The translations under genes and the position numbers were made by a program. This document shows, in pieces, positions 466-16,107 of a stretch of DNA of 29,598 nucleotides (the first letter of the stretch is position 1; every line of letters begins with the position of its first letter). The notes under the pieces were generated by a model, which did not search any database, was not told the DNA's origin, and worked only from the letters and a program-made list of their open reading frames with translations. The stretch covers positions 1 to 29,598 of the IMG/VR virus record IMGVR_UViG_3300026320_000022; one strand, 5' to 3'. This DNA is from a virus.

Positions 466-788
466 TGACCCTCATCAGATTGATGGAAAGTACCCTATAC
501 AAATCGCCAGGGACTATCATCGTCAGTCGAGATGACGACGGCGTCCATCATTTCTCTAGCTCCGAACGTCCAGACCGCATCATCATCGACATCCACAATC
601 TGAGCATCGGCTTCGGTTGGATGAACGTGAACAGCGTCCAGAAGACGATCACGTTCTCCCTTGACGGGGAGGTTTTGGTGTATCGTCGCATCGGCAAGGA
701 CCCCCACGGGTGGTGGGTCTGCGATCGGGTGCATGATGGCGATCAACTTCACGAAGGCGATAGAGCTTCAGGTAGTCCGCAAGCTTAA
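465..788 (+). CDS. Small phage protein of unknown function
   Basis: This encodes 107 residues from GTG 465. CGGAG lies seven bases upstream of this start; an in-frame ATG at 483 has no visible ribosome binding site, so GTG is preferred. The middle is rich in alternating hydrophobic residues (RIIIDIHNLSIGFGW, KTITFSLDGEVLVYR), which suggests a small beta-sheet protein. I do not recognise the family. The last 56 bases overlap the proposed start of the large protease gene in another frame. That is a long overlap, so either the C-terminus here or the next start could be misplaced. Confidence 0.5.
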   Translation: MTLIRLMESTLYKSPGTIIVSRDDDGVHHFSSSERPDRIIIDIHNLSIGFGWMNVNSVQKTITFSLDGEVLVYRRIGKDPHGWWVCDRVHDGDQLHEGDRASGSPQA

Positions 789-3774
789 GTCCCATGCCAA
801 GGTCGGCTACCAGGACCATCCCAATGGCGACAAGCGGTGCTCTGGCTGCTCGATGTTCGTTGAGGGCAACCCGCCGGCATGCACCCACGTTGCACCTCCG
901 ATAGCCTCCCACGGCTACTGCGACGACTATGAACCGCTCGATCCCAACGCCAGGGCGCGCGCGGCCATTGGGAAGGCCAAGTCTTTCGCCGAGGTGCTGA
1001 AGGACGGTCCTCCGGACGAGTCTCGCGACAATCAGGGCAAATGGACGACGGGGTCTGGCGTTGGCCAAGGGACGACGAGGCAGAGCGGCAGGACCGGTGG
1101 CAGGATTGCTGGTCGGCGCGGCCAGTCAGTGAGCACCTACCTGGATGCCGAGCTTCGCCGGGAAGAGCGCCAGCAGGCCCGCGACGAGAAGCAGATGGCC
1201 GATGCTCAACAGAAGGTGAATGACCTTCAGCGCCAACTCAGCGAGCACAGCCAGGACAAGAGCGAGGACCTCTATTGGGGCATTCACCGGATGTACCAGC
1301 AGGCGGTGACGGATCTTCACGAGTTGCACCAGCAGATATTCGGGAAAGCATTTAGCAAGGCGTTCGATCCAGGCGAACCTCGCGACGAGAAGGGACGATG
1401 GACGGCAGGTGATTCCCCGGGCCATCCTGACCAGCTAAACGCCGAAGACAGTAGCAAGTTGGCTGCCGCCATGGAAGACGTGCCGCAAGGTATGCACGAT
1501 AGTGTTGATCATATTGAGGAGGCTCGTCAGGCGTTGCAGGATGCAACCGACAACGCCGACGATGTCGCTAGCGAGGAGGAACCTATTCTTGATGAGCACG
1601 GTGCGAATTCTAAAGAATATGCCGCATGGGAGAAACAGCTAGAGGTTGCGCAGAGAGACAGCGCAGACAAGGCGATGGCGTTGCATAAAGCGATTGAGGA
1701 CCACATGGACGCGACTACCGGTGTGCTAGGGCAGGTTCGCGCTCGCCTCAGCACGCATGTCGAGGAATATGGCGGTAGAGTGGGCAAGAGCATGACCGTC
1801 GGCGACGTCCATGCCGCCACTGCGCTCGGCAACCAGTCTCCCAACAAGCGCAAGGCGAAGGACTTCCTGACCACCATCGGGGAGATCAATGGTGCGCGCG
1901 TCATGGCGATTCCGGCCATGAACTTCGGCAAGGCGCTGGAGAAGATCAAGGCGGATGTGCTCGGCGGCATAGCGATCCCGGTGGAATGGGGAAAGAACCG
2001 CATCGCGCCGAATCTGACGCATTATTGGCCGTTCGAGAAGCGCACCGTCAACGTCCTGTTCATGCGTCATGGCCCGACCCGGTTCAACAATCAGACCGAC
2101 ATGTCGAAGGACAGAGTGCGGTCGTGGAACAACGTCCCGCTGACGGCGGAGGGCATCGAGGACGCCGAGAAGGCCGGCGAGAAACTGGCGAAGCAAGACA
2201 TCGGCTACATCGTCAGTTCTGATCTCGGCCGCGCCATCCAGACGTCTAAGATCGTCGGCAAGGCGATTGGGATCAAGCCCATCCATGACTATGGAATGCG
2301 GCCGTGGAACCTCGGCAAGTTCACCGGACAGACGACGGACGAGGCCCATGACGGTATTTTGGAGCACGTCGAGAACCCGGACGAGATGGTGGACGGCGGC
2401 GAGTCGTTCAACACGTTCAAGGCCCGCGCCGCCCAGGCGATGCTGAACCACATCAAGAAGGCAGGCAGCAAGAAGATGCTTGTGGTTTCCCACCACCGCA
2501 ACGAGCGCCTGTTCGCCGCGATGCGGCCGGACGGGACGGTCGACGCCAAGAAGTTCATGAAGACCGGCGAGGACCCCGGCGACGTCACCGAGATGGAGTT
2601 CAGCACCGATGAACTCCAGAATGCCCTCAGGGGCGCCAAGGAAGGTCCTGGGGAGGAGAAGATCGGCAAGGTGTGGGGCAGCAACGATGAACTTCCGGAC
2701 GGCGTCAGGAACGTCCTGCCGCAGGAGGCGCAGACCGTCTGGCGCAAGGTGGCCAACGACCGCATCAAGGCAGGGCAGTCCGAGAAATCCGCCATCCGGC
2801 AGGCGTGGACCGCCGTCAAGAACGGATGGAGCAAGACCAAGGACGGTTGGGTGCGCAAGACGTGGCTGGAGTCGGACGGCGTCCACGAGTTCCTCGAGGC
2901 GGAACTGGCCAAACTGGGGGGTAGCACGTCGTCCATCGCCAAGCCCACAGACCAGGTCAACGTATCGCTCCAGCTGATCCCGTTGGACGATCAGAATGCG
3001 CGTTCTCCGTTCCCGTACGACCAGTACTTCTTCTCTGACCTGCGCAACGACCAGAAGGAGCGCGTGCTGGCGGCGCTGACGGACCAGGATTCGCTGGAGG
3101 AGCGGGAGATCCCGTTGTCCATGCTGTCAGCCGTCCAGGACCGGGTCGACCCGGGGAAGATACAGTCGATGATCGAGGGTGCCCCTGAAAAGCGTCCGGT
3201 GGTGGTACGCATTGGCCCGGGGCGCTACTGCATAGTCGACGGTCACCATCGGCTGACGGCGGCGAAGCTTAGCGGTGTGAAGACGGTCACGGTCAAATAC
3301 CTCGACATCGAGGACTATGACCCGCGCGTCCATACCGATGAAAATCAAGGCAGCAAGGGCGAGCCCGTGAACAAGGCGCTCGACATGGAGATCGAGTTCG
3401 ACGTCCGGAAGACCGACGAGGACCAGCAGCTTGTGTTCGGCTGGGCGTCGGTCTGCTCCATCGGCGGTGTGGATGTGGTCGACAAGCAGGACGACATCAT
3501 TCCGGAGGACGAGCTGGAGAAGGCGGCATACGACTTCGCGCTCTACTGCCGCCAGCAGGGCGACATGCACGAGCGGATGGGTGTCGGGCGGTTGGTCGAA
3601 TCCATGATGTTCACCAAGCAGAAGCAGGACGCTATTGGGATCGACCTGGGGTTGACGGGGTGGTGGGTAGGATTCAAAGTCGATGATCCTGGCGTCTGGG
3701 CCAGAATTAAAGATGGGTCGTTGCCTGAGTTCAGCGTGGGGGGGAAGGCGCGGCGGGAAACAATCGACGCTTGA
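733..3774 (+). CDS. Multidomain prohead protease: Cys motif, histidine phosphatase, ChaB-like, ParB-like and XkdF-type protease domains
   Basis: This encodes 1013 residues from ATG 733; the frame is open back to TTG 661. Seen in order are a Cys cluster at about 36-62 (CSGC, then ACTHV, then GYC) and two copies of an RD-x2-G-[KR]-W-T-x-G motif near 98 and 217, with a charged helical stretch between and after them. A histidine phosphatase domain spans about 437-600 with RHG at 445-447, R500, E557 and H587 or H588. A ChaB-like domain lies at about 653-709 (LPDGVRNVLP to DGWVRK), and a ParB-like domain at about 795-870 (VDGHHRLTAAKL). The C-terminus (885-1013) resembles the XkdF prohead protease family, with H946 and S1001 (PEFSVGG) as likely catalytic residues. 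The protease would mature capsid proteins inside the prohead. XkdF-type proteases are usually far shorter, so the upstream 880 residues are fused cargo of the polyvalent-protein type. Domain calls come from motifs; the protease and phosphatase are the most secure. Confidence 0.85.
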   Translation: MMAINFTKAIELQVVRKLKSHAKVGYQDHPNGDKRCSGCSMFVEGNPPACTHVAPPIASHGYCDDYEPLDPNARARAAIGKAKSFAEVLKDGPPDESRDNQGKWTTGSGVGQGTTRQSGRTGGRIAGRRGQSVSTYLDAELRREERQQARDEKQMADAQQKVNDLQRQLSEHSQDKSEDLYWGIHRMYQQAVTDLHELHQQIFGKAFSKAFDPGEPRDEKGRWTAGDSPGHPDQLNAEDSSKLAAAMEDVPQGMHDSVDHIEEARQALQDATDNADDVASEEEPILDEHGANSKEYAAWEKQLEVAQRDSADKAMALHKAIEDHMDATTGVLGQVRARLSTHVEEYGGRVGKSMTVGDVHAATALGNQSPNKRKAKDFLTTIGEINGARVMAIPAMNFGKALEKIKADVLGGIAIPVEWGKNRIAPNLTHYWPFEKRTVNVLFMRHGPTRFNNQTDMSKDRVRSWNNVPLTAEGIEDAEKAGEKLAKQDIGYIVSSDLGRAIQTSKIVGKAIGIKPIHDYGMRPWNLGKFTGQTTDEAHDGILEHVENPDEMVDGGESFNTFKARAAQAMLNHIKKAGSKKMLVVSHHRNERLFAAMRPDGTVDAKKFMKTGEDPGDVTEMEFSTDELQNALRGAKEGPGEEKIGKVWGSNDELPDGVRNVLPQEAQTVWRKVANDRIKAGQSEKSAIRQAWTAVKNGWSKTKDGWVRKTWLESDGVHEFLEAELAKLGGSTSSIAKPTDQVNVSLQLIPLDDQNARSPFPYDQYFFSDLRNDQKERVLAALTDQDSLEEREIPLSMLSAVQDRVDPGKIQSMIEGAPEKRPVVVRIGPGRYCIVDGHHRLTAAKLSGVKTVTVKYLDIEDYDPRVHTDENQGSKGEPVNKALDMEIEFDVRKTDEDQQLVFGWASVCSIGGVDVVDKQDDIIPEDELEKAAYDFALYCRQQGDMHERMGVGRLVESMMFTKQKQDAIGIDLGLTGWWVGFKVDDPGVWARIKDGSLPEFSVGGKARRETIDA

Positions 3775-4707: not shown

Positions 4708-5031
4708 ATGACAGACACAGCCTCAATGAAAAAGTATACACTGGTCCAGCCCGTCGTGATGGAAGGCTTCCCCGACGCGCACAATGTCTTCCTGCAAGTA
4801 ACGAACCAGCGCTTTTGCGTCTCGCCGCACGGCTGCGATACCAAAGAAGATGCGGAGTGGATGCAAGATCAGCTATGCGTCGCTTTGGCAAAGCTCGTTG
4901 ATGACGAGCTTGTAGGCTACCGCACGCCGGCGACACCGCCTGATTTCGCGAACATCCTTGATGCTGCCGGCAAGCCTTTTGGCAGCTATCCGCCGACTAC
5001 GTCGACACCGGCGCATGCTGGAACGGAATGA
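4708..5031 (+). CDS. Small phage protein of unknown function
   Basis: This encodes 107 residues from ATG 4708, preceded by an excellent ribosome binding site (GAGGAGGAG). The middle (YTLVQPVVMEGFPDAHNVFL, then CVSPHGCDTKEDAEWMQDQL) suggests a small alpha/beta fold, and there is no signal peptide or membrane segment. I do not recognise the family. The 3' end overlaps the convergent PadR-like gene by 35 bases. Its neighbours are other small genes of a regulatory or moron-like patch between the protease and scaffold genes. Confidence 0.65.
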   Translation: MTDTASMKKYTLVQPVVMEGFPDAHNVFLQVTNQRFCVSPHGCDTKEDAEWMQDQLCVALAKLVDDELVGYRTPATPPDFANILDAAGKPFGSYPPTTSTPAHAGTE

Positions 5032-5338
5032 GGGCATCGCGGATAGCGACGACGCCGTCAGCGGTGAGGTCGTATAGGATCCTTGGTGGCCTATATTCCG
5101 TGGCGGCGTTAACTTTCTCATGGTGGCACCGGACCCAGCCACGGCGCTCGAAGCTGCGGAATATCTGAGACACCGAAGTGGGCGATGTCCCGACCCGCTT
5201 GGCGATCTCCCAGCCCCAGTGCTTCTTGTCCCGCTCCGTAAGCATGATGCTGCCGACCTTGAGCGATATGGTGGGGATTCTCCCGTTGCTTCCCGAGTAT
5301 CCCCGGCGCTGCCGGTAGTCTTTCATCGCGTGGGACAT
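4997..5338 (-). CDS. PadR-like winged-helix transcriptional regulator
   Basis: This encodes about 113 residues on the - strand. The core KHWGWEIAKRVGTSPTSVSQ followed by FRSFERRGWV is a DNA-recognition helix-turn-helix, and RPPRILYDLTADGVVAIRDAL matches the wing and C-terminal helix of PadR-type repressors. The start is taken at ATG 5338, with GGAGCGAAG upstream; TTG 5383 and the in-frame ATGs at 5326 and 5245 are alternatives. PadR proteins usually repress nearby genes, often their own. It is one of only two - strand genes here and points away from the scaffold operon, so it may control expression of an accessory or lysogeny-related function. The family is fairly clear; the target is not. 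Confidence 0.7.
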   Translation of the reverse strand: MSHAMKDYRQRRGYSGSNGRIPTISLKVGSIMLTERDKKHWGWEIAKRVGTSPTSVSQIFRSFERRGWVRCHHEKVNAATEYRPPRILYDLTADGVVAIRDALIPFQHAPVST

Positions 5339-5412
5339 CTGATCGTTCTTCGCTCCATTATGCGCGCGCTCATGAATTTCCAACGTTTTGACGTGGCTGT
5401 AAATAGCAATGC

Positions 5413-6813
5413 ATGGCCCGCGTACTCCGGAACCTTCGCATAGATGATGTGAGCAGCGTCGATGTGGGCGCGGGACGTGGCGTCAAGGTGGTTCTCACGA
5501 AGCGCAACATGCCTTCGCTGTACGAGTCCATGGGGCCTGACGAGATTGCGGACCTCTCCGAGGAAGTGGCGGAATATCTAAAGCGCGAGTTCAGCGGCAA
5601 GGAGCGCCAGTCTGCCGCGGACAGCGGCGCTGCCCTTCCTGATGGTTCATTCCCGATCAAGACCAAAGAAGACCTTGGCAACGCCATCCAGGCGATCGGC
5701 CGCGCGAAGAATCCGGCGAAGGCGAAGGCGCACATCAAGGCGCGGGCATCTGCGCTCGGCGCGTCAGACATGCTGCCGGATTCCTGGAGCAAGGGCCTCA
5801 CCAAGGCCGACGTCGAGTTGGTCGCCGAGCGCAACGTCTTCGCCAAGGTGTGCAAGGCGGCGAAGGACTTCAGCGACATGGCAGACGCCATGGAGACGGC
5901 CGAGGACGCGTCGGAACTGATGTGTGCCGTTCGCGACGCGATGTGCGCGCTCGATTGCTCGATACAGTCCATCCTTTGCGACGAGGACATCACCGACAAG
6001 GTCCCGTCGATCACCACCAGCTACAACCAGTTCAAGGACCACATCGCCGGACTCGGACTTGAGGACGACGCTGATGACGACACGGAGAAAAAAGACATGT
6101 CCCAAGTGACAGCCCTGACCACCGCAGCGGTCCAGAAGATGATCGACGAGGCCGTCACCAAGGCCGGCGCCGAGAAGGACGTGCGCATCGAGAAACTTGA
6201 GATGGAACTCCTCATCTCGAAGATGTCGGACGCCCAGAGGACCTACCACGACAACCTGGGATCGGACACGGACAAGAAGAAGTTCCGCGACATGTCACCA
6301 GATGCGCGCGACGGCGAGATGGACAAGACGAAGAAGCGTTTGTCCGACGATCCGATTGTCAAGGGTTTGATGGCCGAGAACGCAGATCTGAAGAAGCGCC
6401 TCGACGCCATGGACGACGAGCGCGACCTCAAGATCGCCAAGCAGGACGCGAAGGACTCTGGGTTCACCCAGACCGACGCCGGCGAGGTGCTGATGAAGAT
6501 GCGCCGCGGCGACAAGGACGCCATCAAGAAGTACGAGGGCATGGTCGCCGAGTTGGCGAAGTCCAAGAAGGCGTTCGAGAAGTCCAGCCGCGCGTTCGAG
6601 GAGATCGGCGTCACCGGTTCGCCGGAAGGCGAGGGTGCCACCGCGATGGACGCCATCGCCACGATGGCCAAGGCGCTGCGTGAGAAAGACCCGTCCCTCA
6701 CCGAGGCCCAGGCGTTCGACAAGGCCTACAACGATCCGGCCAACATCAAGCTGCGCCAGGCCGAGGCCGACGCGCGCATGGCCAAGATCCACGGCCGGTC
6801 CCACGCCGCCTGA
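5413..6813 (+). CDS. Scaffold protein with an N-terminal XkdF-associated domain
   Basis: This encodes 466 residues from ATG 5413. The N-terminus (ISSVDVGAGRGVKVVLTKR style) is typical of proteins encoded next to XkdF-type proteases. Residues about 78-130 match a small helical domain (FPIKTKEDLGNAI to LPDSW). From residue 229 to the end the protein is highly charged and predicted coiled coil, as expected of a capsid scaffold that assembles the prohead and is then removed by the protease. An in-frame ATG at 6097 has its own ribosome binding site and may yield a shorter 238-residue scaffold. It lies directly upstream of the decoration and capsid genes. The role is inferred from composition and position. 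Confidence 0.75.
   Translation: MARVLRNLRIDDVSSVDVGAGRGVKVVLTKRNMPSLYESMGPDEIADLSEEVAEYLKREFSGKERQSAADSGAALPDGSFPIKTKEDLGNAIQAIGRAKNPAKAKAHIKARASALGASDMLPDSWSKGLTKADVELVAERNVFAKVCKAAKDFSDMADAMETAEDASELMCAVRDAMCALDCSIQSILCDEDITDKVPSITTSYNQFKDHIAGLGLEDDADDDTEKKDMSQVTALTTAAVQKMIDEAVTKAGAEKDVRIEKLEMELLISKMSDAQRTYHDNLGSDTDKKKFRDMSPDARDGEMDKTKKRLSDDPIVKGLMAENADLKKRLDAMDDERDLKIAKQDAKDSGFTQTDAGEVLMKMRRGDKDAIKKYEGMVAELAKSKKAFEKSSRAFEEIGVTGSPEGEGATAMDAIATMAKALREKDPSLTEAQAFDKAYNDPANIKLRQAEADARMAKIHGRSHAA
6084..6087 (+). promoter_or_regulatory. Internal ribosome binding site for a nested scaffold start
   Basis: GGAG at 6084-6087 sits nine bases ahead of an in-frame ATG at 6097 (codon 229 of the scaffold gene). 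The run GAGAAAAAAGAC between them is unusually A-rich for this gene. The shorter product (6097-6813) would be the coiled-coil scaffold alone, as in phage lambda, where the scaffold is made from a nested start. Confidence 0.45.
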
Positions 6814-6851
6814 GCCACGCACGACATCCGTTCCATGGAGGAGCAGTAGCC

Positions 6852-7442
6852 ATGTACTTCGAGAAAGAGATCGGCCAGGGCCGCGCCTTCATGGAGCTGG
6901 AGCGCCGGACGGACGGCGGTTTCGGCATCAAGCGCCGCGGGTTCATCCAGCGCGCCAAGGGCCGCCCGGTCCAGCAGCAGCAGGCGACGGAATCGCCGCT
7001 CATCCACGACGGGTCTCAGACTATCCTGTCGACCGGGCAGGATTTCCGCAACTCGACGATCACTGGTACGACCCTAGCTGGTCCAAGCGGCAGTGGTCAG
7101 TACTTGTTGGTCACGCTCAGCACCGGTCGCACCATCACTCTGTTCACGTCGACGATGATCAATTTGTCGTCGGCCCAATCAGTGTATGGCGTCTGTCAGA
7201 ACAAGCCACGCGCTGGTGATGCGGTCGACGTCGGTATCTTTGGCATCACGAAGGTGGTGTCAGCATCCACTGCAATCGCTGGCGGATCATTGCTGCAAGC
7301 ATCATCCACATCATCCGGCTCAGTTGTTCCGTGGGCTAGCGGCAATGGCAGAGCAGTCGGCATCGCAATCGAGAACGCGCTTAGTGTCGGTGCGGTATTC
7401 ACTGCCTTCGTTGGCGGCGTCCAGATCGCGTCAAGCTTCTGA
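6852..7442 (+). CDS. Putative capsid decoration protein (DUF2190-like)
   Basis: This encodes 196 residues from ATG 6852 with a GGAGGAG ribosome binding site. The C-terminal half (GDAVDVGIFGITKVVSAST, then GNGRAVGIAIENAL) has the small beta-rich pattern of phage head decoration or cement proteins of the DUF2190 kind. These bind the outside of the mature capsid and stabilise it. The N-terminus is basic and Gln-rich (RPVQQQQ). It lies between the scaffold and capsid genes, the usual place. Its stop overlaps the next start (TGATG). The family match is by pattern only. Confidence 0.6.
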   Translation: MYFEKEIGQGRAFMELERRTDGGFGIKRRGFIQRAKGRPVQQQQATESPLIHDGSQTILSTGQDFRNSTITGTTLAGPSGSGQYLLVTLSTGRTITLFTSTMINLSSAQSVYGVCQNKPRAGDAVDVGIFGITKVVSASTAIAGGSLLQASSTSSGSVVPWASGNGRAVGIAIENALSVGAVFTAFVGGVQIASSF

Positions 7443-7771
7443 TGACCAAAGTCACGCAAATATATGCCAGTTTCAGTCCAGCAGTCCCCGCTGATGCGGT
7501 GGGCACAATGTGGATGAAATGGGAAGGCGGCTTTGGTCACGTTATCGTGGTCGCCGGAGTTACGTTCAACGGCACATCAAAACTCACCATGGGATGGGAT
7601 GCTGATTCGCCGTGGGCGTCTGGAGAGAGAATAGGTCTGGTTTCGTTGAACATGCCTTCCATAACTGCTGCTGGAGACTACACGTTCAACATGCCGGAAG
7701 GATTCCTTTCTTTTAAGTGCGATGTGAGTGGAGGAGCAATATCTGCGCTCACTGTCTTGGTGGTGCGTTAG
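7442..7771 (+). CDS. Small virion-like protein of unknown function
   Basis: This encodes 109 residues from ATG 7442, overlapping the previous stop. It is beta-rich (HVIVVAGVTFNG, then DYTFNMPEGFLSF) with no signal peptide. It probably belongs to the virion, as a second decoration or surface protein, because of its coupling to the preceding gene and its position before the capsid gene; no family is recognised. Its stop codon overlaps the stop of the HNH gene on the other strand by four bases. Its base composition is more AT-rich than the capsid gene. Confidence 0.6.
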   Translation: MTKVTQIYASFSPAVPADAVGTMWMKWEGGFGHVIVVAGVTFNGTSKLTMGWDADSPWASGERIGLVSLNMPSITAAGDYTFNMPEGFLSFKCDVSGGAISALTVLVVR

Positions 7772-8421
7772 CGGAGTTGATGCAGCGGATACGTTTTCTC
7801 GAACCAGGAGATCAGCGCCTTACGGTCGCGCGATGAGATGAGACGATGAACGGCTCGGTGGCAATCGAAGCACAGGCAGGCGAAGTTTTCGAACGTGTTG
7901 TTCGATTGATCTTCGTCAATGTGGTGCACGTGTATGGCGATCTCGCCGTACGCTGCGCCGCAGGCTTCGCACTTTGCCTCAGCGTGCTGCCAGCGTTTCC
8001 ACGCATCAGCGCCGTATCGTTCGAGAAGATCGTCCTGTTTTTGCTTGGGCGTGCATGGGCCTCTGCGCTTCTGGTATCTTTCATTCCGTTCACTGGCCGC
8101 CTCGTTGCATGCCGAACAATGAATGCGAAGACCAAGAGCGCGAGGCTGTCCGCAGTTAACGCAGAGACCTTGTCTCCTTCGTTCCTTTCGTTTTGCCGCC
8201 ATGCGGTTTTTGTTCCACTCCAGACATTTGGCGCAGAATGTCTTTCCGAGCGCGACGACTGGATCGCGACATCGAACGCAAATCTTCAAATTAGCTCTGG
8301 CGATAGCGCGGATGCTGTTCTCATGAACTCCCATGCGCCGAGCAACTTCAGCCGCATTACCAATTTGTTCCAGCAGTTCGAGAGCTTTTGTTCGATCGAT
8401 ATACTTTTGGGTCTTAGGCAT
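7768..8421 (-). CDS. HNH homing-type endonuclease
   Basis: This encodes 217 residues on the - strand from ATG 8421, preceded by a strong GGAGG seven bases upstream; a GTG at 8457 would extend it. The N-terminal 35 residues include a helix-turn-helix (NAAEVARRMGVHENSIRAIA) for DNA recognition. Three Cys pairs then form zinc ribbons (CVRC/CAKC, CVNC/CSAC, CEAC/CFDC). The catalytic HNH motif HVHHIDEDQSNN lies near residues 164-175, with CHRAVH closing it. Such enzymes nick or cut DNA and spread their own gene to related phages. It faces opposite to the head genes, is AT-richer than they are, and sits between the decoration and capsid genes, so it is probably an acquired mobile gene. Confidence 0.85.
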   Translation of the reverse strand: MPKTQKYIDRTKALELLEQIGNAAEVARRMGVHENSIRAIARANLKICVRCRDPVVALGKTFCAKCLEWNKNRMAAKRKERRRQGLCVNCGQPRALGLRIHCSACNEAASERNERYQKRRGPCTPKQKQDDLLERYGADAWKRWQHAEAKCEACGAAYGEIAIHVHHIDEDQSNNTFENFACLCFDCHRAVHRLISSRDRKALISWFEKTYPLHQLR

Positions 8422-8457
8422 GTTGCCGCCTCCAATGATCGAACAATCACCAGCCAC

Positions 8458-8540: not shown

Positions 8541-9557
8541 GTGCCCTCACCCACGTTCGGGGACGTCCACGTAGCTGCAGCGTTGACCCAAATTGCCGTC
8601 GCCTACTTCCAGAGCGACGACAACTACGTGGCGGACAAGGTTTTCCCGATGGTGCCGGTCCAGCACCAGACGGACGTCTACTTCGTGTGGAGCAAGGCGG
8701 ACTTCTTCCGCGACGAGGCGCAGGTCCGCGCCGACGCGTCGGAGTCGGCGGGCACCGGCGTCAACCTGACGACGCAGACCTACAGCGCCAAAGTTTGGGC
8801 ATTGCACCAGGACGTCGGTCCGCAGGTCCGCGCCAACCAGGACCCGGCGATCGACATCGATGTGGTGAGCACCCGCCAGCTGATGCAGAAGCTGATGATC
8901 AGGCGCGACCGCTTCTTCATGTCGAAGTACATGATCACGGGTGTCTGGAACACGCTGGGCGGCGGCGACGCCACCGGCACCACCGCGGCGCTCGGCAGTC
9001 CCGGGACCTTTGCGCCCGTATTCTGGGACGACGACGCGAACTCCGACCCTTTCACGGACATCGCGTTCGGCCAGACGACCATCCTGACGAACACCGGCTT
9101 CCTGCCGAACGTGTTCCTGATCTCGTGGAATGTCTACCAGGCGCTGCGCAAGCACCCGCTGGTGATCGATCGTATCAAGTACACGAACCCCGCGTTCGCC
9201 GGCACGATCACGCCGCAGCTCCTTGCGCAGGCGTTCGCGATCGACCGCATCGTGGTCAGCAAGGCCGTCTACAACACTGCGGCCGAGAACCTGAGTGCAT
9301 CGATGGCGTTCGTCGCCGGCAAGAACGCGCTGCTGCTCTACGTGCCGGGACAGCCCGGCCTGATGATCCCGTCGAGCGGCTACACCTTCGGCTGGCAGGC
9401 GTTCACCGGGCTGAACTCGCTGGGCATCAGGGTGTCGCAGATCCCGATGAACTGGTTGGGGCTCGGGACGATCCGCAACGAGGCTGAGATGGCGTTCGAC
9501 ATGCAGGTGGTCGGGGCCGACCTCGGGTTCTTCTGGTCAGCCATAACGACGGTCTGA
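8541..9557 (+). CDS. Major capsid protein (HK97-like)
   Basis: This encodes 338 residues from GTG 8541 with a strong AGGAGG ribosome binding site. The sequence has the composition and length of HK97-fold capsid proteins from phages with this head-gene order. An N-terminal helix is followed by DNYVADKVFPMVPVQHQTD, which resembles the start of such proteins. The middle includes a long helix (STRQLMQKLMIRRDRFF), and IDRIVVSKAVYN with FVAGKNALLLYVP resembles the A domain. It would form the icosahedral shell on the scaffold and be matured by the protease. No separate N-terminal delta domain is obvious; the protease may act on the scaffold instead. Confidence 0.85.
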   Translation: MPSPTFGDVHVAAALTQIAVAYFQSDDNYVADKVFPMVPVQHQTDVYFVWSKADFFRDEAQVRADASESAGTGVNLTTQTYSAKVWALHQDVGPQVRANQDPAIDIDVVSTRQLMQKLMIRRDRFFMSKYMITGVWNTLGGGDATGTTAALGSPGTFAPVFWDDDANSDPFTDIAFGQTTILTNTGFLPNVFLISWNVYQALRKHPLVIDRIKYTNPAFAGTITPQLLAQAFAIDRIVVSKAVYNTAAENLSASMAFVAGKNALLLYVPGQPGLMIPSSGYTFGWQAFTGLNSLGIRVSQIPMNWLGLGTIRNEAEMAFDMQVVGADLGFFWSAITTV

Positions 9558-11363: not shown

Positions 11364-11648
11364 ATGACGGTCTATGTCAGCGAGCACGTCAGCGACGCCA
11401 ACCCGAGGCAGCCAGGAAAGACGGCTATCGTCTCCTACTCGCTGTCGTCAGCTAGCACGGCTCCGTTCCCGGGGGCAGGAACGAAGTATATCCGCGTGAA
11501 CTCTGATGTTGGTTCGTTCATCTGCCTTAACTCGACGAGCACCGCCACGACGCCGACAGCGACCAACTCCTTTCATCTTCCAGCAATGGGGATTGGCGAA
11601 CCGTTCGCAGTGTCGACGGGCTTCAGGATCAACGTCGCATCGACCTAA
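11364..11648 (+). CDS. Small Ser/Thr-rich virion-like protein
   Basis: This encodes 94 residues from ATG 11364, a few bases after the previous stop, with GGAG upstream. It is beta-rich and full of Ser, Thr and Ala (SLSSASTAPFPGAG, then NSTSTATTPTATN), with no charge clusters, membrane segment or signal peptide. No family is recognised. It resembles other small proteins of this island in composition and probably belongs to the particle. The Thr-rich stretch would be an attractive glycosylation target. Confidence 0.55.
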   Translation: MTVYVSEHVSDANPRQPGKTAIVSYSLSSASTAPFPGAGTKYIRVNSDVGSFICLNSTSTATTPTATNSFHLPAMGIGEPFAVSTGFRINVAST

Positions 11649-11662
11649 GAGGAGATCACGTT

Positions 11663-12160
11663 ATGGCAAACTTCGGCGTTCAGCTTCTCGGCTCGGTCGG
11701 CGTCGCGTTCCGCTCGGCCGGCGTCATCTACGTCTCGACCGCGGCCGCATCGACACGCAGGATCAACTTGTACGAGGCCAACGTCGGGCAGGTGGCCAGC
11801 GCCTACGCCAACACGGACACCTCGATGCTGTGGGACGTGTCGCGGATCGGGGCCAGTGCGTCCCTTGCCTCCACCCTGGTCACCCCAAACCCGTTGGACG
11901 GCACGGCCAGCTCAGCTGCGCTTTCGACCTATTCCAATCTCGCGACGACGGAGGCGGTAGTCACCACCCAGGGCAACGGCCTGTCGCTATACAGCTGGCC
12001 CATCAACCAGCGCGGGTTCAACCGGTGGCGCGCTCTGGACGACGGCGACAACATCATCGTCCCGTCCGTCTCGCAGAACGGTCTCGCCATCCGCATGCTC
12101 TGCTCAGGCGGTGCCCAGGCGTTCTCGGGCATCGGGACGATAGCGTTTGGCGAGGCCTGA
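11663..12160 (+). CDS. Beta-rich virion-like protein
   Basis: This encodes 165 residues from ATG 11663, with a GAGGAG ribosome binding site. The sequence alternates short hydrophobic strands with small polar residues (VGVAFRSAGVIYVSTAAAST, ALSTYSNLATTEAVVTTQGN). It ends in a glycine-rich strand pair (IRMLCSGGAQAFSGIGTIAF). It looks like a capsid or tail surface component, but no family is recognised. Its stop overlaps the next start (TGATG), tying it to the two zinc-finger genes that follow. Confidence 0.55.
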   Translation: MANFGVQLLGSVGVAFRSAGVIYVSTAAASTRRINLYEANVGQVASAYANTDTSMLWDVSRIGASASLASTLVTPNPLDGTASSAALSTYSNLATTEAVVTTQGNGLSLYSWPINQRGFNRWRALDDGDNIIVPSVSQNGLAIRMLCSGGAQAFSGIGTIAFGEA

Positions 12161-12468
12161 TGAAGCTACAGAACTTCAAGCCTGGCGGGGTGACGTTCCG
12201 GAGCGACGGTTGGACGTGCGTCGAGATGCACAGTTCCACCTGCAGCCATTGCCAGCACGTCACCGAGTTTCCGTCCCTTAAGAAGATGACGGACTACATC
12301 GACTTCTGTCGGTCGTGCATGGAGGAAGTCTGCATAGATCGTCCGGGTCCTAACGGCACCACCATTCCGGGATGTGCCGGCAGGCCGTGCAGGTCTTGGC
12401 TCAAGAAGTGCGACATCGATGAGGCCGTCTATCGTCAGAAGTTTTATGGAAGCCTCACGGAATACTGA
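12160..12468 (+). CDS. Small zinc-finger-type phage protein
   Basis: This encodes 102 residues from ATG 12160 (TGATG overlap). Four Cys pairs or clusters are seen: CSHC, FCRSCMEEVC, GCAGRPC and a later KKC, enough for two zinc sites. The pattern CxHCQHVTEFPS and CxxCMxxxC is familiar from small proteins next to head genes in phages of Rhizobiales, where the role is unknown. It may bind nucleic acid or act in protein-protein contacts. It overlaps the next gene's start and is probably co-translated with it. Confidence 0.6.
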   Translation: MKLQNFKPGGVTFRSDGWTCVEMHSSTCSHCQHVTEFPSLKKMTDYIDFCRSCMEEVCIDRPGPNGTTIPGCAGRPCRSWLKKCDIDEAVYRQKFYGSLTEY

Positions 12469-12905
12469 TGGGACACTGCTTCAACTGCGTCCACTGGATC
12501 ATGGGCAAGAAGACCGTCTACAGCGACGGAACCGAGATATTCACGCCCACCTCGGCTCCTGGGAAGGGCCAGTGCCAGGCGCTGAATATCGAGACCCCGC
12601 CAGAGTTCGGCTGCAACGCCCATTCCCTCGGCGAAGTCCACGTCACCGTCACGCAGAAAGACGGTGCTCCCTGGCAGAATTTCGAATATCGGCCTTGCCC
12701 GGATTGTGGCGGGCGCGGTAGCACTCCAGAGGCCGGCATGTGTTATCGATGCTACGGCACGTCTCGGGTGCGCTTCTATGACGACGGCTACATCGGCGAA
12801 GAGCGGACCCGCCTCCACCCGAAGGAAACGGAACCGCCATGCATGGAACCGCCCACGATGACAAACGAACGACCCAATCCGTTCGTGGCCCAGGATACTC
12901 CGTAG
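12468..12905 (+). CDS. Zinc-finger protein with a DnaJ-like Cys motif
   Basis: This encodes 145 residues from ATG 12468 (TGATG overlap). The N-terminus has CFNCVHW, and residues about 78-100 carry CPDCGGRG followed by CYRCYGTSRVRF, a close match to half of the DnaJ-type Cys-rich zinc finger. DnaJ itself has four such repeats and a J domain, neither seen here. The C-terminus is Pro-rich and disordered. It overlaps the start of the methyltransferase fusion by 67 bases. A role as a folding or binding partner for neighbouring products is possible. Confidence 0.6.
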   Translation: MGHCFNCVHWIMGKKTVYSDGTEIFTPTSAPGKGQCQALNIETPPEFGCNAHSLGEVHVTVTQKDGAPWQNFEYRPCPDCGGRGSTPEAGMCYRCYGTSRVRFYDDGYIGEERTRLHPKETEPPCMEPPTMTNERPNPFVAQDTP

Positions 12906-15286
12906 ATTTCTGGAAGTGGTACGAGGAGCACGCGGTCTCGCGGCTCAAGTCGTGGCCCGTCCCGTCGTATCACACCCGCGCCGACACCTTTCGCATGATG
13001 TTCGAGCACCTCGACCGGTTCGACCGGCCAGTGCTCATCGTTGAGACGGGCTGCGCGGAGAGGCTCAACGATGATGGTTGGGGTGGAAACGGGTGTTCGA
13101 CTCTGCTGTTCGACAAGTACGTGAGGACGCATCCCGGGTCATCGTTCGAATCCGTGGATACGGACGCCGCATCCGTCGAGTTGTGCAGGGGAGCGGTGTG
13201 CGCTTCCTCGTACATCCACTGCGGCGACAGCGTTCAATATCTGAAGGCGGCGGCCGATGTTTCTTCCGATCCCATCGACCTGCTCTACCTCGACGCATCG
13301 AACCTGAACTGGGCGGCGACGCTCCTTGCCCAGAAGCACCACCTAGACGAACTGTTGGCGGCGTTGCCGATCCTGCGGCCGAACACGCTCGTCGCTGTCG
13401 ACGACGCCCCGATCGTCCTTGAGAACTGTCCTTACATCGAGGTCGGCGGCAAGGGCGGGCTGGTCGCGAGGTATGCCGCGGAGGTAGGTGCCGAGCAGGT
13501 GTTCCAGCATTACCAGGCTGGCTGGGTTGGGATGGTGTCGTCCGTCGATGTGGCTCCCGTCCCGAGCGAGACCGTCAACCTCAAGGACATGCTGGCGCAG
13601 GCCAGCGGGTACTACCACGCCGGCCGCGTCTTGGACGCCAACAACCTATTCCGTTTGATCTACACGATCACGAAGAATCCAGAGACCAAGGCGCAGCGCA
13701 TCGCCCGTGGCGAGGCATGTTTCTTCTTCGCGAAGATCGCGGCCAGCCAGAAGAAGCTGGGGACGGCGTTCGACTGGTACCAGGAAGCGATCAAATGCGT
13801 CCCGGATGCGGTCGAGTACATCCTGGAGATGGTGGGGCAGACATTGCGGCCGATGCGGCATTGGGACCGGGCGATCAACGAGGCCATCGTGGCGACGCGC
13901 ATCGAGCCGGACAACGTTCACGCGTGGCGCATGCTCGGCGGCCTCTACCTCTGGTCGGAGAAGCTGGAGGAGGCTAAGTCCGCCTTCCGGCGCGCGATGG
14001 AAGTCGACCCGGACGCTGTTGAGCCGAAGTTGGACATGATCTCGGCGCTGTTCGACGACGAGCCGACGAAGGAGGTTTACGCCGAGGCCGAGAGGCTGGC
14101 GCACGAGGTCCGCTTCGCCAAAGAACCGCCCACCGCGCATGGTGACGCGACGCTGACCCTGGCCTTCACCGCCTACCGCGAGGGGCGGCACGAGGACGCG
14201 ATAGCGCTCTACGACGAGGCCTTGGAGGTCGGCGTTAGCGAGCCCGCGACGTGCCACTGGAACAAGAGTTTGTCGCTCCACGCGTTGGGCCGCTACAGGG
14301 ATGGATGGAAGGAGCACACATGGAGGTCCGTGGAGCGCACCCAGCTGCCGCTGTACGTGCCGGTCAATCGCTTCGATCTGCCGATGTGGAATGGCGAGGG
14401 GTCGGTTGCGAACTATAATTATGACACCAGTGCAGATAAGAGTACCGTTACTAGAACACGTATCCATGTCCACGCCGAGGCCGGGTTCGGCGACAACCTT
14501 TGTTGCTCGCGGTACCTTCGGCTGATGACCGATAAGGGATATGACGTTCGCTACGAAGCCTATGAGAACATGCTGTCCCTGATGCAGCGCAGCTTTCCAG
14601 AGGTGAAGGTCGTCCCGCAGGCCATAGACTATCCAGGCGCGATCGGCATCGAGGCGTTTGACTATCACATCCCGATCGGCGAGCTCCCGCACGTGTTCGG
14701 GACGGAGGTCGACACCGTGCCGTGGTTCGGGCCGTACCTGCACACTGATCCGGAATTGGTAGATCGGTATCACTGGATATTGAAGCGCAGCTGCGATCCC
14801 GGTCAGAAGAAGGTCGGCCTGTGCTGGTCGTCCGGCATCCGCGAGGGTCTGTGGATCGCGAGGTACGGCAAGCGGAAGTCGATGCACTTCGACGATCTCA
14901 AAAACATAGTTTACCTGGACATTCCAGTTAGATTCTTCAGTCTCCAGGTCGGACCAGAACGGGATCAGATGAAGTCGTGCAAATATATCCACAATGTCCT
15001 TCCCGAGAAGCCGTCTTGGGACGACACCGCGGCGCTGATCGCCAACCTCGACCTCGTTATCTCCGTCGACACCGCGGTGGTGCACCTCGCCGGCGCGATG
15101 GGAAAGCCCGTGTGGCTGATGAACTCGGCCGAGCCCGGGTCGTGGCACTGGATGGCCGAGCGCCCAGGCTCCCCTTGGAACGAGCGCAGCCCGTGGTATC
15201 CTAGCGTCAAGATCTATCGGCAGAAGAAGGTCGGTGAGTGGGACGAGTTGGTGAGAAGGGTTGCAAACGACCTGAGCGCGGCCTGA
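12839..15286 (+). CDS. Methyltransferase - TPR - glycosyltransferase fusion
   Basis: This encodes 815 residues from ATG 12839. The N-terminal region (about 30-230) is a class I SAM methyltransferase: VETGC at 68-72 is the SAM-binding loop, with SVDTD and DLLYLDAS downstream. The middle (about 245-500) holds tetratricopeptide repeats, such as EEAKSAFRRAMEVDPDAVEP. The C-terminus (about 540-815) is a GT-B glycosyltransferase of the heptosyltransferase (GT9) or SPINDLY-like kind: HAEAGFGDN, KKVGLCWSSG, and SVDTAVVHLAGAMGKP near 742-755. It has no signal peptide, so it acts in the cytoplasm. It could add and methylate sugars on virion proteins or surface polymers. Substrates are unknown; the TPR region would select a protein partner. 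Confidence 0.8.
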   Translation: MHGTAHDDKRTTQSVRGPGYSVDFWKWYEEHAVSRLKSWPVPSYHTRADTFRMMFEHLDRFDRPVLIVETGCAERLNDDGWGGNGCSTLLFDKYVRTHPGSSFESVDTDAASVELCRGAVCASSYIHCGDSVQYLKAAADVSSDPIDLLYLDASNLNWAATLLAQKHHLDELLAALPILRPNTLVAVDDAPIVLENCPYIEVGGKGGLVARYAAEVGAEQVFQHYQAGWVGMVSSVDVAPVPSETVNLKDMLAQASGYYHAGRVLDANNLFRLIYTITKNPETKAQRIARGEACFFFAKIAASQKKLGTAFDWYQEAIKCVPDAVEYILEMVGQTLRPMRHWDRAINEAIVATRIEPDNVHAWRMLGGLYLWSEKLEEAKSAFRRAMEVDPDAVEPKLDMISALFDDEPTKEVYAEAERLAHEVRFAKEPPTAHGDATLTLAFTAYREGRHEDAIALYDEALEVGVSEPATCHWNKSLSLHALGRYRDGWKEHTWRSVERTQLPLYVPVNRFDLPMWNGEGSVANYNYDTSADKSTVTRTRIHVHAEAGFGDNLCCSRYLRLMTDKGYDVRYEAYENMLSLMQRSFPEVKVVPQAIDYPGAIGIEAFDYHIPIGELPHVFGTEVDTVPWFGPYLHTDPELVDRYHWILKRSCDPGQKKVGLCWSSGIREGLWIARYGKRKSMHFDDLKNIVYLDIPVRFFSLQVGPERDQMKSCKYIHNVLPEKPSWDDTAALIANLDLVISVDTAVVHLAGAMGKPVWLMNSAEPGSWHWMAERPGSPWNERSPWYPSVKIYRQKKVGEWDELVRRVANDLSAA

Positions 15287-15429: not shown

Positions 15430-16107
15430 ATGCGCATCGACGTTCCGAAGGTAGTTTTTACGATATTGCTGAGTGTGGTTCCATTTCTGCATTGGACCGA
15501 GCCGACATTCTCGCAATCGTGTCCTGTGCCCGGCGGGACGGTGATCGCCCCTCCACTAGCAGCGATGACAGCGCCGTTTTCAGGTCCCGCAAACCCAAAT
15601 ATTGATTGTAGCGGTGCGCCTCCACCTCCTCCACCTCCCCCACCTCCTCCACCTCCCCCACCTCCCGCTACGACGATCACGATGGGCGAGACATCATGCA
15701 ACCTCGCTGGCACTGACGGCGGCAACGGCGGCTTGATCTTGGCGCAAGCCGCTGAACTGGCGCAGGCCGGAACGCTCAAGAGTTTATCGTTCTGCGTGGT
15801 AAATCCTGCTGGCCAGCTCCGCCTTGGCGTCTACACATTGGACAACCAGATCGTCGTCCAGACCGGGACGTTCACGCCAATCGCTGGCCGGAACATCCAA
15901 CCCGTTGGCAATGTGCCGATCCCGGCGGGAACTTATTGGCTGGCCTACGAGCCGAGTAGCAGCAACCTGAGCTTCCCCGTCGATCAATCCTCTGGTCAGG
16001 CCAAGTGGGCCGGGCAGACGTTCGGGGCCATGCCAGCCACGTTTCCCACCGTTGATTGTTGCACTGGCCTACATTGGGGGTTCTCGGCAACGCTGGTCCC
16101 GCAATGA
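15430..16107 (+). CDS. Secreted protein with a poly-proline linker and a beta-sandwich-like domain
   Basis: This encodes 225 residues from ATG 15430, preceded by AGGAGG at a nine-base spacing; ATG 15421 is too close to it. Residues 1-30 form a signal peptide (basic start, hydrophobic VVFTILLSVVPFLHW, then TFSQ). A stretch of 16 prolines follows at about 64-79. The rest is a beta-rich domain with six or so cysteines (TSCNLAG, SFCVVN, DCCTG), as expected outside the cytoplasm. It might be surface-exposed on the host or attached to the phage. It has no enzyme motif I recognise, and it overlaps the next gene by ATGA. Confidence 0.65.
   Translation: MRIDVPKVVFTILLSVVPFLHWTEPTFSQSCPVPGGTVIAPPLAAMTAPFSGPANPNIDCSGAPPPPPPPPPPPPPPPPATTITMGETSCNLAGTDGGNGGLILAQAAELAQAGTLKSLSFCVVNPAGQLRLGVYTLDNQIVVQTGTFTPIAGRNIQPVGNVPIPAGTYWLAYEPSSSNLSFPVDQSSGQAKWAGQTFGAMPATFPTVDCCTGLHWGFSATLVPQ
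15619..15666 (+). repeat. Proline-codon run with an 18-base tandem duplication
   Basis: Sixteen consecutive CCN codons encode the linker. Within them, 15625-15642 and 15643-15660 are identical 18-base units. Such runs expand and contract easily and can stall ribosomes unless EF-P is present. Confidence 0.9.

Follow-up and report, generated by a model that had tools for sequence, protein, structure and literature searches.

A phage methyltransferase-TPR-glycosyltransferase fusion that probably glycosylates and methylates a virion protein

What use would a soil phage have for a single protein that joins a methyltransferase (MT), a TPR array and a glycosyltransferase (GT)? The question is raised by an 815-residue reading frame (12839-15286, + strand), running from ATG to TGA without an internal stop codon, in the window, by which we mean the whole 29,598-nucleotide stretch analysed here, a 29.6-kb virus record that is a fragment of the phage. 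The original prediction placed this gene in a head operon, and genes for a head protease (661-3774), a scaffold-like protein (6852-7442) and a major head protein (8541-9557) are indeed present in the window. The last of these shares at most 40% identity with its counterparts in Pseudomonas phages RSP and KPP23, the best matches in the phage records searched. The protease frame itself has an unusual combination of Peptidase_S78_2, a histidine phosphatase domain (E 9.6e-30), ChaB and a ParB-like region, and its listed TTG start may lie too far upstream. An HNH endonuclease-like gene (7768-8457, - strand) sits just before the major head gene, and a divergent counterpart occupies the same place in a sister phage, L002.

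The predicted three-part architecture held up, each part being backed by profile matches and the MT and GT parts also by models. By profile and AF2 fold, the first part (residues about 22-235; 12902-13543, + strand) is a predicted class I SAM O-methyltransferase. It is followed by a TPR array (residues about 245-490; 13571-14308, + strand), a putative substrate-binding module that matches TPR_2 (E 3.8e-12), TPR_12, TPR_14 and TPR_19, and then by a GT domain of the GT9-type GT-B class (residues about 540-815; 14456-15283, + strand), assigned by Glyco_transf_9 and fold. The fusion thus contains, in one chain, the TPR module and GT-B domain in the order known from FlmG-type enzymes. The residues that had been singled out for mutation were also read correctly: positions 68-72 are VETGC, and D744 and H749 are as given.

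The full fusion occurs in 15 distinct phage loci, with identities of 41-91%: L002 has it at 90-91% identity to the window, and alignment-based scans recovered it at 41-54% in other phages; a scan with alignment A2 gave no yield, and many of the viral records compared are fragments. Recurrence in 15 distinct loci rules out an assembly artefact or a frameshifted fusion. Between the window and L002, dN/dS is about 0.10 for the MT, 0.06 for the TPR and 0.18 for the GT part, and the fusion is under purifying selection. This selection, together with the invariant motifs described below, argues against a degenerate or dead domain. The reading frame and all three of its parts are confirmed as real. 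Most of the fusion is more than 90% identical between the two phages outside GT residues 521-560 and 641-720 (window 14399-14998), where divergence is high and synonymous sites are saturated. Positive selection on these patches was considered and set aside; since dS is saturated there too, replacement by a diverged allele fits better and is their likely origin.

The TPR-GT half had been likened to O-GlcNAc-type (GT41/SPINDLY) enzymes, a kinship that finds no support. Glyco_transf_41 (PF13844) gave no match to the fusion at E 0.1, and in the same profile library it matched bacterial neighbours in loci L121 (3e-86) and L149 (2e-75). The GT domain instead exceeds the curated cut-off of Glyco_transf_9 (26.8 bits vs 22), over 41 positions only, a cut-off also passed by the proteins of L116 and L117. 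The best fold matches of its AF2 model (pLDDT 85) were 3tov (Z 18.0), WaaF (17.8), WaaC (16.2) and TibC (16.1); GT9 enzymes were followed by GT9-like plant NDH complex subunits, after which scores dropped to about Z 12. OGT was not among the matches listed for the model, which GT9 enzymes lead at Z 16-18. The profile result rejects a GT41/SPINDLY identity, and the GT half is of the GT9/heptosyltransferase type, an assignment made by predicted fold beyond the 41 Glyco_transf_9 positions. Across 22 GT sequences, the glutamate, both glycines and the aspartate of the motif E547-x-G-x-G-D552 are invariant, and by its position D552 is a candidate catalytic base. The domain also has a D744-T-x3-H749 motif, which a profile alignment pairs with D261/H266 of WaaC within a weak overall sequence match (E 0.065).

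The MT domain matches PHROG 24975 over residues 44-230 (E 9.2e-33) and reaches Methyltransf_24 (PF13578) with E 3.6e-4 and 21.8 bits, under the gathering score of 26.3; by sequence it is a distant Methyltransf_24-like protein. An AF2 model built on 54 phage sequences (pLDDT 90) found its best structural matches among metal-dependent O-methyltransferases, with COMT on top (Z 15.9) and the sugar enzymes MycF (14.7), NovP (14.5), SpnH (14.1) and CalS11 (14.0) one to two Z units behind, and Foldseek placed MycE, SpnK and CalS11 near the top. Across the 54 sequences, 18 residues never vary and D107 is kept in at least 90%. The invariant positions include E69-T70-G71 of the IVETG SAM loop, D130-S131, Y150 and D152 of a Y150-x-D152 motif, H167, E171 and D188-D189. 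D152, D188 and D189 are candidate metal ligands, and their invariance fits metal-dependent O-methylation. By predicted fold, SAM loop and acidic motifs, the domain belongs with class I O-methyltransferases of the COMT/TylF-MycF type. Because sugar methyltransferases do not outscore COMT-type enzymes, fold alone gives no sugar acceptor, and the model is compatible with a sugar or another hydroxyl acceptor and does not choose between them.

Comparison across phages suggests that the methyltransferase is a swappable module around a constant TPR-GT. In L101 and L116, a TPR-GT gene without an MT domain shares 4 bp with a gene for an FkbM methyltransferase, and in L117 a TPR-GT gene has a separate Methyltransf_11-type gene upstream. 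L109 carries an extra Methyltransf_11-type gene, and L002 has, relative to window 12449-12471, an additional segment of about 1.1 kb (L002 6548-7633) with an FkbM methyltransferase gene and a small gene, around which the two phages are otherwise collinear. Looser arrangements also occur: Synechococcus phage BUCT-ZZ01 encodes a GT and then a probable methyltransferase (match under cut-off) in one chain in its tail-fibre region, and in podovirus ctDrO704 the major capsid gene is followed, three genes on, by one for a TPR-GT, beyond which come a separate methyltransferase and a GT8 gene. In a TPR-GT tree rooted through distant rows, the unfused forms of L101, L116 and L117 fall outside a single fusion clade (95/98). 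The fusion thus looks to have arisen once, from a separate-gene state that appears to be the older. In an MT tree, the 15 fused domains group together as one clade (100/95), itself nested in a clade of 58 mostly bacterial rows (99/99), and nearly all standalone phage MTs are placed elsewhere, which rules out derivation of the fusion from these common standalone phage methyltransferases.

Most fusion loci share one conserved cassette among virion genes, in which 4-bp gene overlaps are frequent and the order is a MANYEA-family protein, Cys-rich gene A, Cys-rich gene B and the fusion, followed by Ser/Thr-rich beta proteins and a GWEI-repeat protein. In the window, the MANYEA-family gene (11663-12160, + strand) encodes a small putative virion protein of 165 residues, which also precedes the cassette enzymes in 12 further loci. 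Gene A (12160-12468, + strand; 9 Cys), with homologues in 7 other cassettes and in 3 of the loci found later, starts at the stop codon of the MANYEA-family gene. Gene B (12468-12905, + strand) has 7 invariant cysteines across 10 sequences and a weak match to the DnaJ-type CxxCxGxG pattern (E 0.0086, under cut-off). The fusion follows immediately after it, and the two genes share 4 bp in 8 of the 11 loci compared and 67 bp in the window. Portal, terminase, head protease or head-tail adaptor genes are close to the cassette in L095, L101 and L109. The neighbours described as Ser/Thr-rich are so, with serine plus threonine at 28% (gene at 11364), 20% (11663) and 31% (22282) vs 15% overall. PHROG searches with the small cassette proteins, as well as Rfam and tRNA scans, gave no yield. 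In the gene after the fusion, a tandem CCTCCACCT repeat (15619-15665) encodes a proline run whose length differs in L002.

Further downstream, the window encodes a possible second glycosyltransferase (23213-23947, + strand), GT-A-like by inspection only, which matches PHROG 1574 (unknown function) and no Pfam family. Next to it is a separate Methyltransf_11-type methyltransferase (23958-24566, + strand; PHROG 6636) that is weakly related to the separate MT of the L117 cassette. This candidate pair (23213-24566) was also seen in L092. The following gene (24553-27057, + strand) encodes an 834-residue protein with about 17 imperfect copies of GWEIxPFQPPHPRPE; it belongs to no known family and has homologues near the cassette in at least nine other phage loci. 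Among 12 cassette records, no NTP_transferase was found, and three have an epimerase-family gene elsewhere; two such genes scanned with NCBIfam fell under every curated cut-off. The cassette phages L202, L203 and L204 each have a further sugar locus, which encodes a member of a nucleotide-sugar epimerase family and a TPR protein some 480 residues long.

No bacterial homologue of the full fusion was recovered, either with the fusion's own patterns or among 80 bacterial MT loci, and the MT itself is rare: in one phylum, 2 of 398 genomes carry it, the seed included. In 10 of these 80 loci the MT nevertheless has a TPR-GT gene no more than 8 kb away, vs about 1 expected (P = 1.8e-7, or 1.5e-5 with three closely related loci counted once), the expectation being derived from about 72 TPR-GT genes in 69.3 Mb of MT-carrying genomes with thresholds that differed between searches, so that the figures are approximate. 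Six or seven of the 10 are directly upstream of the MT on the same strand. In L121, from a Rhodocyclales MAG, a single protein encoded at 4992-7940 combines TPR, a GT region and an FkbM domain, and the gene immediately after it encodes an MT of the family studied here. TPR proteins, GT4-type transferases, FkbM methyltransferases and GT41 were among the commonest families in a Pfam tally of 96 neighbours picked by hand, with no matched controls, in 33 loci. In a Hyphomicrobiales locus (L149, 1223-13299), the MT lies together with dTDP-sugar genes, a GT41 TPR protein, flagellin and an FkbM methyltransferase, an arrangement that looks like a flagellin glycosylation island. Other MT relatives lie near an AIDA-repeat adhesin (L145) and a filamentous haemagglutinin-family protein (L118); these surface-protein neighbours are individual examples, with no counted enrichment.

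Several known systems resemble parts of this picture. In domain layout, the fusion is like FlmG of Caulobacter crescentus, a soluble, cytoplasmic enzyme with an N-terminal substrate-binding TPR domain and a C-terminal GT-B domain, whose TPR domain binds flagellin and which requires both domains to glycosylate it (PMC7591256). FlmG, however, has no methyltransferase domain, its substrate is flagellin and its donor is pseudaminic acid. TibC, whose GT9-like fold is shared with the phage GT domain (Z 16.1), is a heptosyltransferase that glycosylates protein serine (PMC4358343), but TibC/AAH enzymes lack TPR, form a dodecamer and have a four-Cys iron site; no invariant cysteine was found among 22 aligned GT domains of the present type. 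In the viosamine island of Pseudomonas syringae, VioM methylates the terminal sugar of the flagellin glycan (PMC3927599). VioM and VioT likewise pair a methyltransferase with a glycosyltransferase on a surface-protein O-glycan, but from separate genes and without a TPR-GT9 fusion. The L121 protein has TPR, GT region and methyltransferase in one chain, although its methyltransferase is of the FkbM type and C-terminal. In A064R of the algal virus PBCV-1, a chlorovirus, two glycosyltransferases and a methyltransferase in one protein serve the glycan of the major capsid protein (PMC9614988), so that one viral protein builds and methylates a capsid glycan. It differs in its GT-GT-MT order, its GT-A-like first domain and the absence of TPR, and it extends an existing N-glycan in a eukaryotic virus.

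From the precedents of FlmG, VioM and A064R, we infer TPR docking of a virion protein, transfer of a sugar to Ser/Thr and O-methylation of that sugar. We consider it reasonably probable that the fusion is a FlmG-like enzyme that would O-glycosylate a phage virion protein and O-methylate the glycan, with activities, substrate and sugar all deduced from such comparisons. The enzyme would be soluble, cytoplasmic and produced during virion morphogenesis, and its TPR superhelix would dock one of the phage's own virion proteins. The best candidates for this substrate may be the MANYEA-family protein just upstream, the foremost of them, or the Ser/Thr-rich beta proteins downstream, the tie of the TPR-GT to any one of them being by gene position only. 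The GT9-fold domain would transfer a sugar from a nucleotide-linked donor to Ser/Thr; D552 is its candidate base, and D744/H749 would lie in the nucleotide site. The putatively metal-dependent MT domain would then O-methylate a hydroxyl of the transferred sugar, so that the fusion could couple glycosylation and methylation on one docked substrate. As originally conjectured, the methyl group might end chain growth or shield the sugar from lectins or immunity. The earlier picture of an enzyme that selects, glycosylates and methylates a protein, with a virion protein as the likeliest substrate, gains indirect support from the conserved place of the fusion among virion genes in many phages, from methyltransferase swapping around a constant TPR-GT and from bacterial relatives beside surface-protein genes. 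A more elaborate version, which we offer tentatively and regard as doubtful, is a self-contained virion-glycosylation cassette in which a MANYEA carrier, two Cys-rich handover adaptors and a TPR-GT with interchangeable fused or separate methyltransferases would produce a phage-specific methylated surface sugar.

Among the alternatives, modification of a host surface polysaccharide (LPS or capsule), which would alter phage receptors or block superinfection, is unlikely. It draws on the GT9 fold being that of LPS heptosyltransferases and on an MT relative in a sugar-gene cluster of cyanophage P-TIM68, such jumbo-phage clusters having been interpreted as capsule or outer-polysaccharide modification (PMC7824862). 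TPR arrays, however, are protein-binding modules, the cassette lies among virion genes in the loci examined for position, an integrase occurs in only one of 12 cassette records, many of them fragments, and some bacterial relatives are near protein substrates. We hold it improbable that, during infection, the GT acts on a protein of the host, for instance its flagellin, pilin or adhesins: bacterial relatives of the MT and TPR-GT do in some cases adjoin flagellin and adhesin genes, but in phages the fusion keeps a conserved position in virion gene blocks, with the same phage protein neighbours in many phages. An equally improbable reading is that the MT methylates a side chain or terminus of the virion protein itself, independently of any glycan. 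The flagellin of Aeromonas caviae is both glycosylated and methylated (PMC9290775), and COMT-fold enzymes rank at or above sugar O-methyltransferases in the fold comparison; against this, MycF, NovP, SpnH, CalS11, MycE and SpnK are among the fold matches, the invariant D152 and D188-D189 fit metal-dependent O-methylation, and MT relatives occur in sugar-biosynthesis loci. Modification of phage DNA bases, for which DNA-hypermodifying phage glycosyltransferases provide a model (Pyle et al. 2024, cited in PMC12619734), is scarcely credible given the TPR module, bacterial neighbours that are protein or sugar genes, and no recognised base-modification gene among the window proteins scanned.

How new would a FlmG-like, methylating virion glycosyltransferase be? 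Searches of open-licence papers for the MT-TPR-GT architecture gave no yield. The claim that a single enzyme for both steps would be novel is weaker than first put: A064R already joins them, and phage-encoded glycosyltransferases and capsid protein glycans are known from mycobacteriophages Che8 and Rita (as cited in PMC11256854), although the citing text there describes no fused TPR-methyltransferase enzyme. Together, these precedents lower the novelty of the phage fusion.

If the proposed function is correct, tailed phages, several of them from soil samples, would carry bacterial-style cytoplasmic O-glycosylation for their own virions, with glycosylation and methylation fused in one polypeptide. 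The system would offer a compact, testable model in which the TPR array sets the substrate, the GT sets the sugar and a swappable MT adds the methyl group. It would also single out certain proteins encoded nearby as probable glycoproteins, and would connect the glycans of phage virions with the glycosylation of flagellins and adhesins.
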